Assembly: GCF_002007605.1 (NCBI RefSeq)
Contig: NZ_CP019799.1
Coordinates: forward strand, 2,170,001 to 2,234,000
Source: Cellvibrio sp. PSBB023
GTDB lineage: Bacteria; Pseudomonadota; Gammaproteobacteria; Pseudomonadales; Cellvibrionaceae
Reading direction: 5' to 3'
Length of the DNA stretch: 64,000 bases
The translations under genes were made by a program, and so were the position numbers. The notes under the pieces were generated by a model. The model was not told the origin of the DNA. It did no database searches and worked only from the letters and a program-made list of their open reading frames with translations. This document shows, piece after piece, positions 18,801 through 25,435 of the stretch. Numbering within the stretch: position 1 is the first letter of the stretch; every line of letters begins with the position of its first letter.

Positions 18801-18853
18801 GGCGTGTGACTATTCAAAACAGGAGATTAACCCTTCAACAATAGTCACACGCC
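18801..18853. terminator. Long inverted repeat between convergent genes
   Basis: A 14-bp perfect stem (18801-18814 with 18840-18853, GGCGTGTGACTATT and its complement) encloses a 25-nt loop. It lies just after the acyltransferase stop and overlaps the end of soxR, so it can fold in both transcripts. There is no T-run, so factor-independent termination is uncertain. Confidence 0.45.
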
Positions 18854-19318
18854 ATCATCAGCGCGCTCAAGGATACGCGCTCCCGGGCCTTGGGCGCCGA
18901 GCACATCATCGGGGTTGCGCAAAGGGCAATCCCGAAGCGATAGACAACCACAACCGATACAGCTATTCAATTCATCCCGCAAGCGCTGCAATTTTTGTAT
19001 CCGTTCGTCCAGGCTCTCGCGCCATTTTGCAGCGGCGCGGCTCCATTGTGCTTTACCGGCTTTGGCTTCCGGTTGATATCGCCCCAGCACACGCTCTATT
19101 TCCCCTAAAGGTATTCCCACACGTTGCGCCACTTTAATAATCGCAATATAACGCAACACACTGGGAGCATAGCGCCGTTGATTGCCCGCATTGCGAATGC
19201 TCACAATTAACCCCTTAGCCTCATAAAAATGCACGGCAGATACCGCCACACCACTGCGCGCAGCCACTTCACCCACACTCAGTTCACGCTCACTGCACAT
19301 CTTGTGTTTTGTCACAGC
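18845..19318 (-). CDS. soxR: SoxR redox-sensing MerR-family regulator
   Basis: A MerR-type helix-turn-helix ([20 protein letters not shown]) and dimerisation helix are followed by the [2Fe-2S] cluster motif [12 protein letters not shown], which is diagnostic of SoxR. Oxidation of the cluster by redox-cycling compounds switches the protein to activator. The frame extends to 19366 but would cross the SoxR operator. The GTG at 19318 has GAGG nine bases upstream and gives 157 residues, close to known SoxR proteins (an ATG at 19300 is the other option). It is divergent from the NTF2-like gene at 19414 and shares its operator. Confidence 0.93.
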
Positions 19319-19320
19319 TA

Positions 19321-19351
19321 TTGACCTCAAGTTAACTTGAGGTTTTATAGT
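19321..19351 (+). promoter_or_regulatory. SoxR-activated promoter and operator
   Basis: The palindrome CCTCAAGTTAACTTGAGG (19325-19342) is identical to the core SoxR box of E. coli soxS. It sits between a -35 TTGACC (19321-19326) and a -10 TATAGT (19346-19351) with a 19-base spacer. That overlong spacing is the hallmark of MerR-family activated promoters. It points rightward to the gene starting at 19414, with transcription predicted from about 19358. Confidence 0.92.
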
Positions 19352-19413
19352 GCAATCACTTTGCATTCATGACAAGCGCACTCACCTACCCATGCACCCC
19401 AGAGGTACTCACT

Positions 19414-21156: not shown

Positions 21157-21187
21157 TAAAGTCCGCTGTTATAGCAGCGGACTTTAT
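21157..21187 (+). terminator. Terminator of the esterase gene
   Basis: An 11-bp perfect stem AAAGTCCGCTG/CAGCGGACTTT (21158-21168 with 21175-21185) with a 6-nt loop is followed by ATT. Confidence 0.8.
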
Positions 21188-21249: not shown

Positions 21250-22059
21250 TCACATCTCCCTTTCAATAAAAAATCCCGCCGCAATCCAGGCTTGTTTTAC
21301 TTCTGTTTGCCATGAGTGAGCGACAAGTTTCAATGGTTTAGCTGTCCAGTGCGCAATAGCGTCCAGTGCGTGACTGATTTTATTGCCGTCGCGCAGTATT
21401 TCCAAAAAGCGAAATTGCACGGGGGTGACAGGAAAGGTTGCTGTTTGAAAGTCGCGGCGCAATATCACCGCATGGGATAACATTTTTGGTGGAAAATCCG
21501 GCGTGCGGCCAGCACGAATTTCATGATAATACCAGGCAACAGGATAACCATAGGTGGCGAGTGTGAGGCAGGGTTGCAATACCAATTCATCGTCCGGCGC
21601 GTTCAGCTCCGGCCACTCACCGCCTTCATGGCCGGGAGCGTCGAATAGACGGAATAACTCGCATTCATAGCGGGTTAAATCCACCATAAAGTCGATCCAG
21701 TCTTCGCGTTGATCGTCAGGTAAATCGCGGTCGGGTCTTGTGTCCTCCAGCCATGCGGAAAAACGATTACCAAGGTCATAAAGCGTATAGCTGTTGGATG
21801 GGCAAGCCTCCAAATAACAATCCGCAAAATCGTTAAACACATCCGCGCCTAGCGCGTAGTGCGTGGCAGGAAATTGTTCACTGAGACATTGGCGTAAACG
21901 CAGAATATAGCTGCGTTGGTAAATCGCAAGGCACGCGGATGCATTTATGTTTGCGCCGGGCAAGAGGGTATCGTTAATACTGTGTGAATTAGGTGCGGCA
22001 GGGTCTAGCAAAGCATTGAGGAACCGGTGCTGTAAGCTATCCAGTGAGGCTGTCGTCAC
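21250..22059 (-). CDS. DUF2063 (HvfC/BufC-type) partner of the MNIO enzyme
   Basis: The N-terminal half shows the DUF2063 pattern: LQHRFLNALLDP, ACLAIYQRSYILRLRQCLSEQFPATHYALG, then FADCYLEACPSNSYTLYDLG. Members of this family act with MNIO (DUF692) enzymes in maturing Cys-rich peptides, probably by recognising the precursor. The frame reaches ATG 22074, inside the previous gene. The GTG at 22059 has AGGAGG six bases upstream and is preferred (269 residues). That site is formed by the last codons of the MNIO gene, whose stop lies one base away, so translation is coupled. Last gene of the operon. Confidence 0.85.
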   Translation of the reverse strand: MTTASLDSLQHRFLNALLDPAAPNSHSINDTLLPGANINASACLAIYQRSYILRLRQCLSEQFPATHYALGADVFNDFADCYLEACPSNSYTLYDLGNRFSAWLEDTRPDRDLPDDQREDWIDFMVDLTRYECELFRLFDAPGHEGGEWPELNAPDDELVLQPCLTLATYGYPVAWYYHEIRAGRTPDFPPKMLSHAVILRRDFQTATFPVTPVQFRFLEILRDGNKISHALDAIAHWTAKPLKLVAHSWQTEVKQAWIAAGFFIEREM

Positions 22060-22060
22060 T

Positions 22061-23014
22061 TCAGGCCTCCTCATACAAACGGCTGCCGCTCATCACATCG
22101 GGCACCATAAAACCGAGCGGAGTGGAAAACCCGCCATTATTTGCTGTTTGTTGTTGGATCGGTTGCGGATTCATATCGCTTATCGCTGTTGCTGCAATCC
22201 ATTCCCGCGCACGCAATACTTCTGCATGAAGTTGCTCAAAGGGCGGTACATCGCCATCCCACTCCAATAAGGTAGCCGCGCCTGCGGATCTGTGCCAAGC
22301 AGTGTGAAATAGCCGCCACACATCGTCACATACGGGGCCATCGTGGGTATCAATAATATGTGTGCCGCAATGTTGATGACCTGCAAGATGCAATTGCACT
22401 ACAGAATCAAACGGAAATTCATCAAGGTAAGCCTGCGGATCTGTGCCCGCATTAAAACAACTGACGTATACATTATTGATATCCAACAGCAAGCGACAAT
22501 CCGTTGCGGCGCAAAGTGCACGCAAAAATTGTGGTTCGCTGATAGTTGAATGCCGAAAACGCACATAAGTGCTGGGGTTCTCCAACACCAACGGGCGCTG
22601 GAGAATATCCTGCACTTGATGCACACGGGGAATCAGATGCTGAAGTACGTCTTCGTTGAGCGGCAATGGTAAAAGGTCGTGACTGTTGAGCCCCAGCACA
22701 CCAGTCCAACATAAATGATCGCTCACCCAACGCGGCTGGATTTCATCAACTAATTTTTTTAACCGGTGCAAATAATCCAGGTTGAGAGGATCAGTGCTGC
22801 CAATCGACATAGAGACGCCGTGCAATACTATTGGATAATGCTCTGCAATCCGTCGCAACATAGCGCGGGGGCGACCACCTGAATCCATAAAGTTTTCCGA
22901 GATAGCCTCAAACCAATCAACGGGCGGTTGCTCGCGCACAATATGTTCAAAGTGAACATTGCGTAAACCCACGCCCAATCCGAGTTGGTAATTCCCCCGA
23001 TCTATTTGTTCCAT
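22061..23014 (-). CDS. MNIO-family multinuclear iron oxidase (DUF692)
   Basis: The 317-residue TIM-barrel enzyme has the family's metal-binding and active-site motifs in order: GVGLRNVHFEHI, DWFEAISENFM, VLHGVSMSIGS, WVSDHLCW, LENPSTYVRF, LLLDINNVYVS, HLAGHQH, IDTHDGPV and LLEWDGDVP. Known MNIOs use two or three iron ions and O2 to modify Cys residues of ribosomal peptides (for example to thiooxazole or oxazolone/thioamide), often giving copper binding. It lies 14 bases after the ferritin-like gene, whose Cys-rich tail is the likely substrate, and is coupled to DUF2063. Confidence 0.92.
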   Translation of the reverse strand: MEQIDRGNYQLGLGVGLRNVHFEHIVREQPPVDWFEAISENFMDSGGRPRAMLRRIAEHYPIVLHGVSMSIGSTDPLNLDYLHRLKKLVDEIQPRWVSDHLCWTGVLGLNSHDLLPLPLNEDVLQHLIPRVHQVQDILQRPLVLENPSTYVRFRHSTISEPQFLRALCAATDCRLLLDINNVYVSCFNAGTDPQAYLDEFPFDSVVQLHLAGHQHCGTHIIDTHDGPVCDDVWRLFHTAWHRSAGAATLLEWDGDVPPFEQLHAEVLRAREWIAATAISDMNPQPIQQQTANNGGFSTPLGFMVPDVMSGSRLYEEA

Positions 23015-23028
23015 TCACCACTCCAACA

Positions 23029-25050
23029 TTAACCGCAACTATTGGCACCGCTCATACCACTGGCGCCACAGGCAGTCATACCTTCACCACTGTAAGTTTC
23101 GATCCACTCCATGGTTGGGCCATTGCTGAAAAGTTCCTGGTGCGGCACCGGCGACGGTGTTTTGGGCAACGAAGGATTATCCTTGCGTAAGGTCGGCCAG
23201 GTTTTTTCTTCAAATACTTTGCGCGCGCGTTTCCATACACCTTTTCCGCGATTGGGGCCGTCGGTGCTGAAGCGTTCTGCATTAATCGGTGTTGCACAGG
23301 AACCCAGCGTTGCGCATTCATTGTGTGCAGGATGATCCTGTTCTTCAGCCGTACCATAAAGCCCACAACCACCTTGACCGGCGCAATCATTTTTTACATG
23401 GCAAGTGTGATCAGACACATTTGGCTGCGATGGATCCGCGTAGTTATATTCCAGTGCAGTGGAACAATAACCTTGGCCAGCACAATTATTATCGCGCGTG
23501 CGCCCCTGGCCTTTACAGTGATTCAACCCCATGCAGGCGTGGCGCACTTCATCTTTACCCACGGCAGCAGGTGGATTGGCAGGAAACTTGGGCACACCTT
23601 TGAATTTTTCCAGTTGTGGATTGGCGACATCCGGCCAGAATGCACTCACATCAGGCAAAGTTGGAATCATCTTGATGTAATCATCCAAATAAGCCGCGGT
23701 ATACCAAGGCTCAGTACCAAATTGCGCGCGAAAGTTGTTACACAAACTGGTGAGATTACTAAACGCCTGATGGCGATGCCCCAAATTAATATTTTCAAAT
23801 GTCGGCGCGAGGTTATAAGTAATGTTATTTTCCTGAAAGGTGACCGTCCTCATTTGCTGAATGACTTTATCGAGAATCCAAATCATTGAGCGGTGCAAGG
23901 ATTGATTGAAATAACGCTTCTGGTTATGCGGCTCCTGCAAAAAAATACTTTCAGTCATGATCAACATGTATTGATACAAACCACTGACCACATTCGCCAA
24001 TTCGGCATAACCCGGCAGATAGGAAGCTGCCACAGGATTATCTGGAAAATTAAATACCACGCCACTCAAATCCGCCGTACTGACCGGTTGCTTTGCAGCA
24101 GCAGGCGGTTTGGGGTGCTTGGGCAGTTTTTCACTTTTAGGATCATAACCTTCAATTTGCGATTGCAAGGTCAGGAATTTGAAGTAGTGGGATAATTCTT
24201 GATGCGATGGATCATCAAATTTAGCAGGGCCAAATCCTTCACCTTGCGCATCAATCGTTTGTATCGCTTGCAGTGCCTGTTCACGCGAAGTAATGGCCAG
24301 TAGCTGGGATTTACCCGCATGACTATCCTCGCGGCTCATATAAGCCGCTGCATGGGCAGCGGAATTTTTCTCCGGCGGCGCCTGGTGTTTATTAAAACTG
24401 TGTTCGGGATAAACTGTATCAATATTATTAGGTGAATAATTGGTTGGCTGAATCTGACGCAATGTTTCGCCCCGATGGAAGTCCTCATCCTTCATATGCT
24501 CAGAGCAAATAATGCAACGCACATAGGAATAAATCTGGCCGATAGTTTTCCACGCACCGCCTTCCGGTGGCGCATCGGATGCTGCCGGGTATTCAATTTC
24601 AAGGAAGTGCCAGAGTTGTTCTACCGATAATTTTGAAAGAGGCAAGGCCAAGGGTTTTGCATCCGGCCCAAGCTTGGTGTGACCCGGCAAATTGGTTGGG
24701 TAAGGGCCAGGGGAATGCAGGTACATCTGCGGCATTTGCCCCAGTGAAAAAAGCACATTGGAAGACAGCGACATGTGCAGCATTTCTTCCACCGCCACAC
24801 TCATGATGGCAGCACCAGCGCGATCAGCAAACTGTGAGAGCGATGTGTCGGGGAACCCGGTGGGTGTACGGTTAATCGAATAATAAGTGAAAAGGTAAAT
24901 AGGGATGGTTGCCAGCTCCACCTCAATCGCCACCTGCAAATGCGATTTCAATTCAGCCAGCGCCTGTTCGCGTGTCCAGTGATCATTAATATGTTTCACT
25001 AAACGTTTTTCGGCTGGTGTCAGCCGTTTTACATGATCGGCGTAATTCAT
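23029..25050 (-). CDS. Ferritin-like (VioB/RebD-type) protein with C-terminal Cys-rich CX5C repeat tail
   Basis: I start at the ATG at 25050 (AAGGA seven bases upstream), giving 673 residues; the frame extends 23 codons further. Residues about 30-290 are a ferritin-like domain of the iminophenyl-pyruvate dimer synthase type, with helix signatures AIEVELATIPIYLF and VAVEEMLHMSLSSNVL (Glu43/45, Glu88/89 and His92 likely metal ligands). A middle helical region follows. Residues 504-673 hold eleven Cys, nine of them in CX5C spacing within repeated N-x-C-(A/K)-G-Q-G motifs like those of bufferin-type MNIO substrates. There is no signal peptide. As first gene of an operon with MNIO and DUF2063, it is probably the modified substrate, not merely a neighbour. 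Confidence 0.82.
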   Translation of the reverse strand: MNYADHVKRLTPAEKRLVKHINDHWTREQALAELKSHLQVAIEVELATIPIYLFTYYSINRTPTGFPDTSLSQFADRAGAAIMSVAVEEMLHMSLSSNVLFSLGQMPQMYLHSPGPYPTNLPGHTKLGPDAKPLALPLSKLSVEQLWHFLEIEYPAASDAPPEGGAWKTIGQIYSYVRCIICSEHMKDEDFHRGETLRQIQPTNYSPNNIDTVYPEHSFNKHQAPPEKNSAAHAAAYMSREDSHAGKSQLLAITSREQALQAIQTIDAQGEGFGPAKFDDPSHQELSHYFKFLTLQSQIEGYDPKSEKLPKHPKPPAAAKQPVSTADLSGVVFNFPDNPVAASYLPGYAELANVVSGLYQYMLIMTESIFLQEPHNQKRYFNQSLHRSMIWILDKVIQQMRTVTFQENNITYNLAPTFENINLGHRHQAFSNLTSLCNNFRAQFGTEPWYTAAYLDDYIKMIPTLPDVSAFWPDVANPQLEKFKGVPKFPANPPAAVGKDEVRHACMGLNHCKGQGRTRDNNCAGQGYCSTALEYNYADPSQPNVSDHTCHVKNDCAGQGGCGLYGTAEEQDHPAHNECATLGSCATPINAERFSTDGPNRGKGVWKRARKVFEEKTWPTLRKDNPSLPKTPSPVPHQELFSNGPTMEWIETYSGEGMTACGASGMSGANSCG
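23032..23541 (-). repeat. Cys-rich repeat tail (putative MNIO substrate region)
   Basis: These codons encode residues 504-673 of the ferritin-like protein. Cys lie at 506/512, 523/529, 550/556/562, 579/585, 661 and 672. The unit H-x-C-x3-N-x-C-(A/K)-G-Q-G occurs twice (from 504 and 548), and each is followed by a further C-x5-C pair. The protein ends ...ANSCG. Confidence 0.75.
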
Positions 25051-25435
25051 CTGCTGTTCCTTCTTCTGATATATACGGTTGGTTAAGAGGCACTTAAAAC
25101 TTATTATTTTATTAACCAAGGAAAGACGTTGATGGCGTATTAGCCGTCATAATCATTTCCCTGATGATATTGAAGTTGCAACACCGCCCGAGTGTCTCAT
25201 GCAAACAAGAGGCTATCTATTACAGGTTATTACACAGGGAAAGTTCATTCGACGACTAGAGGATCATTGCAGCGGTTAGTACGGTGCTCCATTCGGGTTT
25301 AAATTGGAAGATCAGGCAATCATGCCGGATTTTTGTGTATCCCAAATAACAGACCGAATACTTAACATAACAAGCATCGGGACAGCCCGCCTTAAAGCAA
25401 CTTTATATCCAGCTCAACTCATGAGGAATTCCGTT
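25051..25435. other. Divergent intergenic region between the ferritin-like/MNIO operon and the SDR gene
   Basis: About 385 bases with no convincing gene. It must hold both divergent promoters, but I see no clear -35/-10 pair, repeat or metal-regulator operator. The rightward frame from 25304 is only an upstream extension of the SDR gene. Confidence 0.5.

Follow-up and report, generated by a model that had tools for sequence, protein, structure and literature searches.

Organization of the locus

We analyzed a stretch of 64,000 nucleotides (the window) from the 4.7 Mb, single-contig genome of Cellvibrio sp. PSBB023 (G000), and all coordinates of the operon are positions within it. On the minus strand, three genes form an operon running from 25050 to 21250 and encode, in order, a ferritin-like protein, an MNIO (DUF692) enzyme, and a DUF2063 protein. 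This study concerns the ferritin-like protein, whose Cys-rich C-terminal tail is a candidate substrate of the MNIO. The features of the operon are as follows.

23029..25050, minus strand: ferritin-like protein, putative MNIO substrate, 673 amino acids (open reading frame; PF12902, 124.8 bits)
22061..23014, minus strand: MNIO, BufB-type, 317 amino acids (PF05114, 356.1 bits; MNIO_BufB, 360 bits)
21250..22074, minus strand: DUF2063 protein, PME type 1 partner, 274 amino acids (PF09836, 64 bits)
24163..24939, minus strand: PF12902 ferritin-like domain, residues 38–296 (Pfam; weak sequence match to 3hl1)
23032..23541, minus strand: Cys-rich tail, residues 504–673, 11 Cys (Cys invariance; alignment to BufA2-type precursors)
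23464..23535, minus strand: BufA2-like core, residues 506–529, CMGLNHCKGQGRTRDNNCAGQGYC (NCBIfam BufA2 model; hhalign)

The ferritin-like gene starts at the ATG at 25050, which is preceded by AGAAGGA; the mechanical open reading frame opens at the TTG at 25119. A gap of 14 bases separates this gene from the MNIO gene, whose end overlaps the DUF2063 gene by 14 bases, and the GTG at 22059 is a possible alternative start of the latter. The reading frames of all three genes are intact, and the G+C content of the operon (49.1% vs 48.2% for the window) indicates no unusual composition. A pattern scan for promoters and terminators stayed near chance level. By eye, a hairpin is seen at about 21158–21185 (AGTCCGCTG...CAGCGGACT) 3' of the DUF2063 gene; this possible terminator was not reported by the pattern scan.

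To place the operon among its relatives, a pattern scan over 84,980 species genomes was used, and it yielded 11 loci: two Lysobacterales bins, Paracidovorax, four Burkholderiaceae, Thalassospira, an Asticcacaulis bin, an Oceanospirillales bin, and an Acidobacteria bin. The order ferritin-like, MNIO, DUF2063 is found in all 11. One locus (L010) is truncated by a contig end, and the frame of another (L013) is interrupted, hence its absence from the tail alignment. An earlier reading of the window from its letters alone (the sequence-only reading) had proposed three coupled genes at 21250–25050 with no small precursor among them, and the positions and Pfam matches agree with this proposal. The ferritin-like and MNIO genes stand too close together to leave space for a small precursor (14 bases in the window and 4–53 bases in the 11 relatives with the chosen starts), and none adjoins the operon in the list of open reading frames of at least 80 amino acids. 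A separate small precursor within or beside the operon was therefore rejected.

Kinship of the Cys-rich tail with BufA2-type precursors

The Cys residues of the tail are arranged as C506-MGLNH-C512-KGQGRTRDNN-C523-AGQGY-C529, C550-HVKND-C556-AGQGG-C562, and C579-ATLGS-C585, with C661 and C672 near the end. The sequence-only reading had described a bufferin-like tail of CAGQG repeats. A Cys-rich, bufferin-like tail is indeed present, but it contains two CAGQG motifs (523–527 and 556–560) and one CKGQG motif (512–516) rather than a regular tandem repeat. The residue following Cys is Ala, Gly, Met, Ser, or His, and is Lys only at C512. All 11 Cys are kept in each of the 11 aligned tails (the window and 10 relatives), and across these 11 proteins the mean column identity is 78% in the tail vs 72% in the whole protein.

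A Pfam search with the tail alone gave no match. Based on NCBIfam, the BufA2 model (NF050166) covers residues 495–530 at 20.6 bits (E 3.8e-4; cut-off 60), and the comparison of the tail with BufA2 units by hhalign gave 94.7% over 24 columns. With a five-unit BufA2 model, the tails of the window and of nine of the 10 other loci rank above all 2000 shuffles of the window tail. Additionally, the motifs C-x-G-x-N-x-C-K-G-Q-G and N-x-C-A-G-Q-G are common to the window tail and BufA2-type precursors.

Four further matches from an Acidobacteriota-centred sample (L083–L086) are small proteins that consist only of the tail-like part behind a hydrophobic N-terminus. They carry units such as CAGKNGCKGQGACATKDNTCAGQNGCKGKGGC, and RRxF is found in three of the four. 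Three of these small proteins terminate in GGCAVP or a similar sequence, comparable to GSCATP of the window tail. The BufA2 cut-off of 60 bits is passed by two of the three precursors of L083–L085, with L083 at 53.7 bits. In contrast to the 673-residue window protein, the precursors of L084–L086 measure 120–145 amino acids from the first ATG and lack a ferritin-like domain; they adjoin a DUF2063 gene and an MNIO gene whose product is 52–56% identical to that of the window. For L083, neither an MNIO nor a DUF2063 gene lies within its 11.5 kb. Two of L084, L085, and L086 carry RRxF, perhaps within Tat signals.

The window tail aligns to the L083–L086 precursors with scores of 132–153, none of which was reached by any of 500 Cys-kept shuffles (best 80–91). 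For L084, the score of 150 was reached by none of 500 plain and none of 500 Cys-kept shuffles, and the comparison was repeated with 500 others. The precursors of L084–L086 are the closest tail relatives found (scores 132–150), and the signal against typical BufA2 precursors is weaker, with scores of 75 for L061 (reached by 2/500 Cys-kept shuffles) and 67 for L045 (0/500). Similarly, when the L007, L012, and L034 tails and the tail of the diverged L043 were compared with L083–L085, their scores were reached by 0/500 Cys-kept shuffles each; against L045, the signal is weak or absent for L007 (5/500) and L043 (47/500). Collectively, these comparisons indicate that the tail, as judged from its sequence, is homologous to BufA2-type precursors. 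Two other identities were tried and rejected: kinship with HvfA/EGKCG precursors, where the score against the HvfA-like precursor of the same genome was reached by 78/500 shuffles and 65/500 Cys-kept shuffles, and identity with TIGR04222 (MNIO-associated membrane proteins), for which NCBIfam gave no match up to E 1.

Linkage between the tail and the MNIO

A full-length model search of 398 Pseudomonadota genomes found matches in 12, among them one additional full-length member (L034) with MNIO and DUF2063 genes. At L043, the ferritin-like protein is much diverged (30% identity over 117 N-terminal residues) and is accompanied by a recognisable tail, an MNIO gene, and a DUF2063 gene. In the order to which L043 belongs, 4 of 348 genomes encode a protein of this type, that of L043 itself among them; the three others (L099, L100, and L101) belong to the same genus, and all three have the MNIO and DUF2063 genes. 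Therefore, tail-bearing loci with MNIO and DUF2063 genes directly downstream amount to 17 of 17 in two diverged lineages, the 17 being the window, the 11 pattern-scan loci, L034, L043, and L099–L101, several of them mutually close relatives.

Tail-less proteins behave differently. PF12902 occurs in 17 of the 398 genomes of the Pseudomonadota sample, of which three (G000, G555, and G713) have a tailed protein with an adjacent MNIO and 14 have no MNIO in the flanks. In the genome-wide MNIO check, which took in these 17 genomes, 11 of the 14 had no MNIO at all, while G612, G819, and G854 had MNIOs elsewhere. In the Acidobacteriota-centred sample, 13 of 297 genomes matched: one was already known (G066), eight had ferritin-like proteins without an MNIO nearby, and four had the small proteins described above. 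With the two samples combined, an MNIO is adjacent at four of four tailed loci vs none of 22 tail-less loci. Of the tailed four, G000 and G066 were the sample centres and known beforehand, and G555 and G713 are new. The 22 include three weak partial PF12902 matches with unread C-termini (G509, G529, and G643), eight Acidobacteriota loci counted as tail-less from the absence of a model match alone, and a 795-residue protein of G854 with seven Cys in its last 170 residues and no full-length tailed-model match at E 1e-5; the flanks of L042, L056, and L059 are partly cut by contig ends. The association of tailed ferritin-like proteins with DUF692 genes, which the sequence-only reading had suggested looking for, was thus borne out.

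No rival BufA2-type precursor was found in the remainder of the Cellvibrio genome. Of its two MNIOs, the second (L002, 1480–2678, at about 1.31 Mb) has a DUF2063-like partner and its own exported-looking precursor of 116 amino acids with KCGE/EGKCG motifs, which scores above the cut-off of the HvfA-family domain model (77.3 vs 19.5 bits) and below that of the HvfA equivalog (45.5 vs 95). A genome-wide search for a BufA2 or DUF2282 precursor elsewhere was negative: the tail is the sole BufA2-model match, and DUF2282 gave none. A small precursor elsewhere in the genome, the finding that would have spoken against the sequence-only reading, was hence not encountered among these two families, and the HvfA-like one adjoins the other MNIO. 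Moreover, no MNIO besides the linked one was found in G066, G067, G555, and G713, although metagenome-assembled genomes such as G066 and G067 may lack genes.

Because of the homology to precursors, the linkage of 17/17 vs 0/22, and the failure of the genome searches to turn up a competing BufA2 or DUF2282 precursor, the tail is very probably the substrate of the MNIO, as the sequence-only reading had supposed. We also considered that the ferritin-like protein could be a tailoring, chaperone, or iron-supply partner, with a small precursor elsewhere as the substrate and a tail that binds metal through free thiols. Proteins encoded before MNIO genes can be enzymes rather than precursors, as PMC12452194 warns, and tail-less PF12902 proteins occur among plasmid biosynthetic genes, next to a tryptophan halogenase and Ebo genes (L032) or a GMC oxidoreductase (L033). 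Such a role is nevertheless improbable here, given that the tail is homologous to precursors with all Cys invariant, that the gene precedes the MNIO gene as precursor genes do, and that tail-less relatives are unlinked to MNIOs in a background without another BufA2 or DUF2282 precursor.

The spread of the cassette is patchy. None of 20 genomes from the same genus and none of 36 from elsewhere in the family or order carries it, and a tail search of a Burkholderiaceae-centred sample found it in 4 of 398 genomes, all four loci being already known. In a plasmid collection, 53 records matched, with identity below 60% in every case and coverage of the ferritin-like protein always under 80%. This distribution would suit a decaying, horizontally moved cassette with little present function in its host; however, with intact frames, conserved tail Cys, ordinary G+C content, and an operon kept in distant genomes, we regard decay as very improbable.

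Several observations concern the surroundings of these loci. Conserved metal genes beside the operon were considered and rejected: among 14 loci, apart from the three operon genes, one upstream family recurs in four and two groups in two each. The gene just upstream in those four (L006, 4590–5942; L007, 4820–5875; L008, 4584–5945; L011, 4584–5942) encodes a protein of 350–450 amino acids, and the proteins of L006, L007, and L011 have a sub-threshold match to the THAP4 heme-binding barrel. The Lysobacterales genome of L003 also has L061 (6324–7133, minus strand), a BufA2-like small precursor with 12 Cys, whose MNIO is 52% identical to that of the window, so that fused and small-precursor forms coexist in this genome. 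In the window, a MerR-family regulator with a C-terminal CIGCGC...CPLRNP segment lies outside the operon (18845–19366, minus strand), and we take it to resemble SoxR.

The MNIO and its DUF2063 partner

The MNIO scores 356.1 bits with PF05114 (cut-off 25) and 360 bits with MNIO_BufB (NF050167), above the bufferin-maturase cut-off of 310, which is also exceeded by the MNIOs of L034 (353.5 bits) and L043 (341.6 bits). In contrast, its score with the ChrH model is 45 bits (cut-off 600). His65, His100, Glu145, Asn181, His209, Asp222, His224, Glu251, and Asp253 are conserved in 31 of 31 aligned MNIOs; this set comprises metal-site residues, which we take to be ligands from work on MbnB and TglH, and the proposed catalytic Asp (PMC13097082). 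The DUF2063 protein scores 64 bits with PF09836 (cut-off 27.2), its C-terminus, where a PME type 1 partner would carry an RRE-type domain, matches NGO1945_C just below the cut-off (22 bits vs 27), and its score with the HvfC model is 56 bits (cut-off 142).

In a tree of 34 MNIO sequences, the 13 main-lineage enzymes form one clade (support 100/98). The nearest group, with moderate support (81/91), comprises the three Acidobacteriota enzymes beside the small BufA2-type precursors of L084–L086. The L043 enzyme lies outside the main clade without a resolved placement, and the tail label requires two changes on this tree; without the Acidobacteriota rows, L043 grouped with the others (89/90). The L043 lineage perhaps represents an independent fusion, and one origin is also compatible with the tree.

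According to PMC13097082, Asp249 of FonB is the proposed catalytic base, and the next residue governs selectivity around the modified Cys, being Phe in Lys-Cys enzymes and Asp in Cys-Lys enzymes. The tailed-locus MNIOs retain the catalytic Asp, which is followed by Gly in 13 of 14, the exception being L043 with Ala. In the enzymes of our set that are linked to BufA2-type precursors, this position is Asp (L045 and L061), Ala (L046 and L086), or Glu (L084 and L085), and in the L002 enzyme with the HvfA-like precursor, it is Phe. We infer that Gly instead of Asp in the pocket pairs with the near-absence of Lys after the tail Cys.

These features bear on the chemistry. Characterised DUF2063-dependent MNIOs install 5-thiooxazole, and their peptides bind copper (PMC13097082); by analogy, 5-thiooxazole is a reasonably probable modification of the tail. 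A tail that is a substrate, but with a modification other than thiooxazole or a metal other than copper (an iron or zinc site, a redox switch, or a disulphide-rich fold with few changed Cys), is on these grounds unlikely. It would accord, though, with the ferritin-like domain, which points to iron, with the Gly/Ala pocket residue, which is unlike that of other BufA2-type enzymes, with the fusions of bufferin-like segments to MerC, which suggest other metals, and with Buf1, in which the central Cys residues alone are changed (both PMC12452194).

The ferritin-like domain and the predicted location of the protein

The ferritin-like protein is the only PF12902 match in the genome (124.8 bits; cut-off 22.3), and PF12902 is also a domain of VioB. 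Its domain has a weak sequence match to the solved structure 3hl1 (E 7.8e-5). Ten close orthologues were used for an AlphaFold model, which is of low quality (mean pLDDT 49.4), and Foldseek with this model again found 3hl1 as the best hit at E 2.4e-3, with none reaching 1e-3. Glu45, Glu89xxHis92, and His288, which are shared with PF12902 proteins such as 3hl1 (CC_0557), are kept in 18 of 18 aligned proteins (6 tailed and 12 tail-less). Because of this conservation, the domain probably still binds metal, with these residues as likely ligands. An altered third-helix residue was tried as a mark of the tailed family and rejected, as Gln at position 172 is found in tail-less relatives too.

As for location, we compared the best 12-residue hydropathy within the first 30 residues. 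On this simple scale, the window protein and 10 relatives do not exceed 0.58, in contrast to values of 1.7–1.9 for four exported precursors; the value would be 1.32 if the TTG start at 25119 were used, and the start codons of the L043 lineage are unsure. A Sec signal peptide is thus not recognisable in the window protein, unlike in BufA2 precursors. The lack of a hydrophobic N-terminal stretch in the window protein and its 10 relatives suggests that the product probably stays in the cytoplasm, and it matches the description of a cytoplasmic-looking 673-residue protein in the sequence-only reading. DUF2063 partners correlate with Sec-signal precursors (PMC12452194); judged from its N-terminus, the window system departs from this correlation.

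Proposed mechanism

Taken together, we consider it likely that a PF12902 protein has gained a BufA2-type precursor domain at its C-terminus by fusion and that this domain is modified there by the adjacent BufB-type MNIO with the DUF2063 protein. On the model of BufB and BufC, the DUF2063 protein would present or guide the tail to the MNIO. The MNIO would in turn oxidise selected Cys of the tail, with those of the N-x-C-A-G-Q-G motifs as the most likely targets, and 5-thiooxazoles would be the probable products. The modified tail may then bind copper, probably as Cu(I). The ferritin-like part would serve as a scaffold and might also act as a di-metal oxidase next to the copper-binding tail, and the whole cytoplasmic protein would buffer or detoxify a redox metal. 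Activity of the ferritin-like part as a di-metal oxidase is, however, only a tentative suggestion. Still bolder, and in our view doubtful, is a cytoplasmic metalloenzyme in which a thiooxazole copper tail cooperates with the ferritin-type di-metal site in electron or metal transfer, the bufferin domain having become a built-in cofactor, possibly invented twice.

Several points weigh against the fusion and modification proposed here. With 20.6 bits, the tail falls well short of the curated BufA2 threshold of 60, as do the relatives L003 (19.1 bits) and L012 (18.6 bits), and the L043 ferritin-like protein gives no NCBIfam match at all. The five-unit BufA2 model fails to recognise the L007 tail, placing it at rank 1129 of 1989 scored, even though this tail can be aligned to the Acidobacteriota precursors. 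The signal peptide is seemingly part of the BufB-BufC recognition sequence (PMC12452194), and none is recognisable here. Nor do the 14 loci compared share a metal-homeostasis gene next to the operon. Finally, copper is argued from relatives alone, and we favor it as the metal only modestly.

Comparison with known systems and significance

The closest described system is that of BufA2/BufB2/BufC2 (captophorins; NF050166 and NF050167), which has in common with the window an MNIO above the BufB cut-off, a DUF2063 partner, and the gene order. The window differs in its 673-residue ferritin-like precursor without a recognisable signal peptide, which does not reach the BufA2 cut-off, in the almost complete lack of Lys after Cys, and in the Gly that replaces Asp in the enzyme pocket. 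Bufferin-type segments joined to other domains are described in PMC12452194, namely Buf1 with cytochrome c and FGE-sulfatase, MerC with Buf1 or Buf2, and Buf_EGKCG with EF-hand, and that paper suggests that MNIOs modify proteins too. Those fusions are counted among signal-peptide or membrane proteins with a periplasmic bufferin part, in contrast to the window protein. Similar to what we propose, the ChrH-type MNIO subfamily modifies the C-terminal end of proteins above 30 kDa, and it has been shown to act on the end of folded proteins, namely the 34-kDa MelA1 and GFP with a 7-residue tag (PMC12636315); the MelA1 system differs in its MNIO subfamily, its CPACGMG motif, and its secreted TPR protein.

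The word ferritin is absent from the main texts of PMC12452194, PMC13097082, and PMC12636315, whose supplements could hold an unremarked entry. In literature searches on DUF692, MNIO, DUF2063, or bufferin together with ferritin-type proteins, and on captophorin, no fusion was reported among the matches listed; in the text available for PMC8224329, which matched DUF692 and ferritin, ferritin occurs in one reference title alone, and DUF2063 and ferritin were matched together by PMC7907618. The sequence-only reading knew of no characterised example, and these sources likewise gave no ferritin-bufferin fusion. Bufferin-domain fusions are already known; the ferritin-like partner appears to be new.

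If the proposal is true, thiooxazole chemistry would not be confined to small exported copper peptides but would also reach a large ferritin-like protein that is not exported. The window system would offer a natural case for substrate recognition by BufB and BufC without a signal sequence, the loss of the acidic pocket residue together with the loss of Lys after Cys would give a testable rule for which Cys is modified, and the two diverged tailed lineages would serve as natural replicates.

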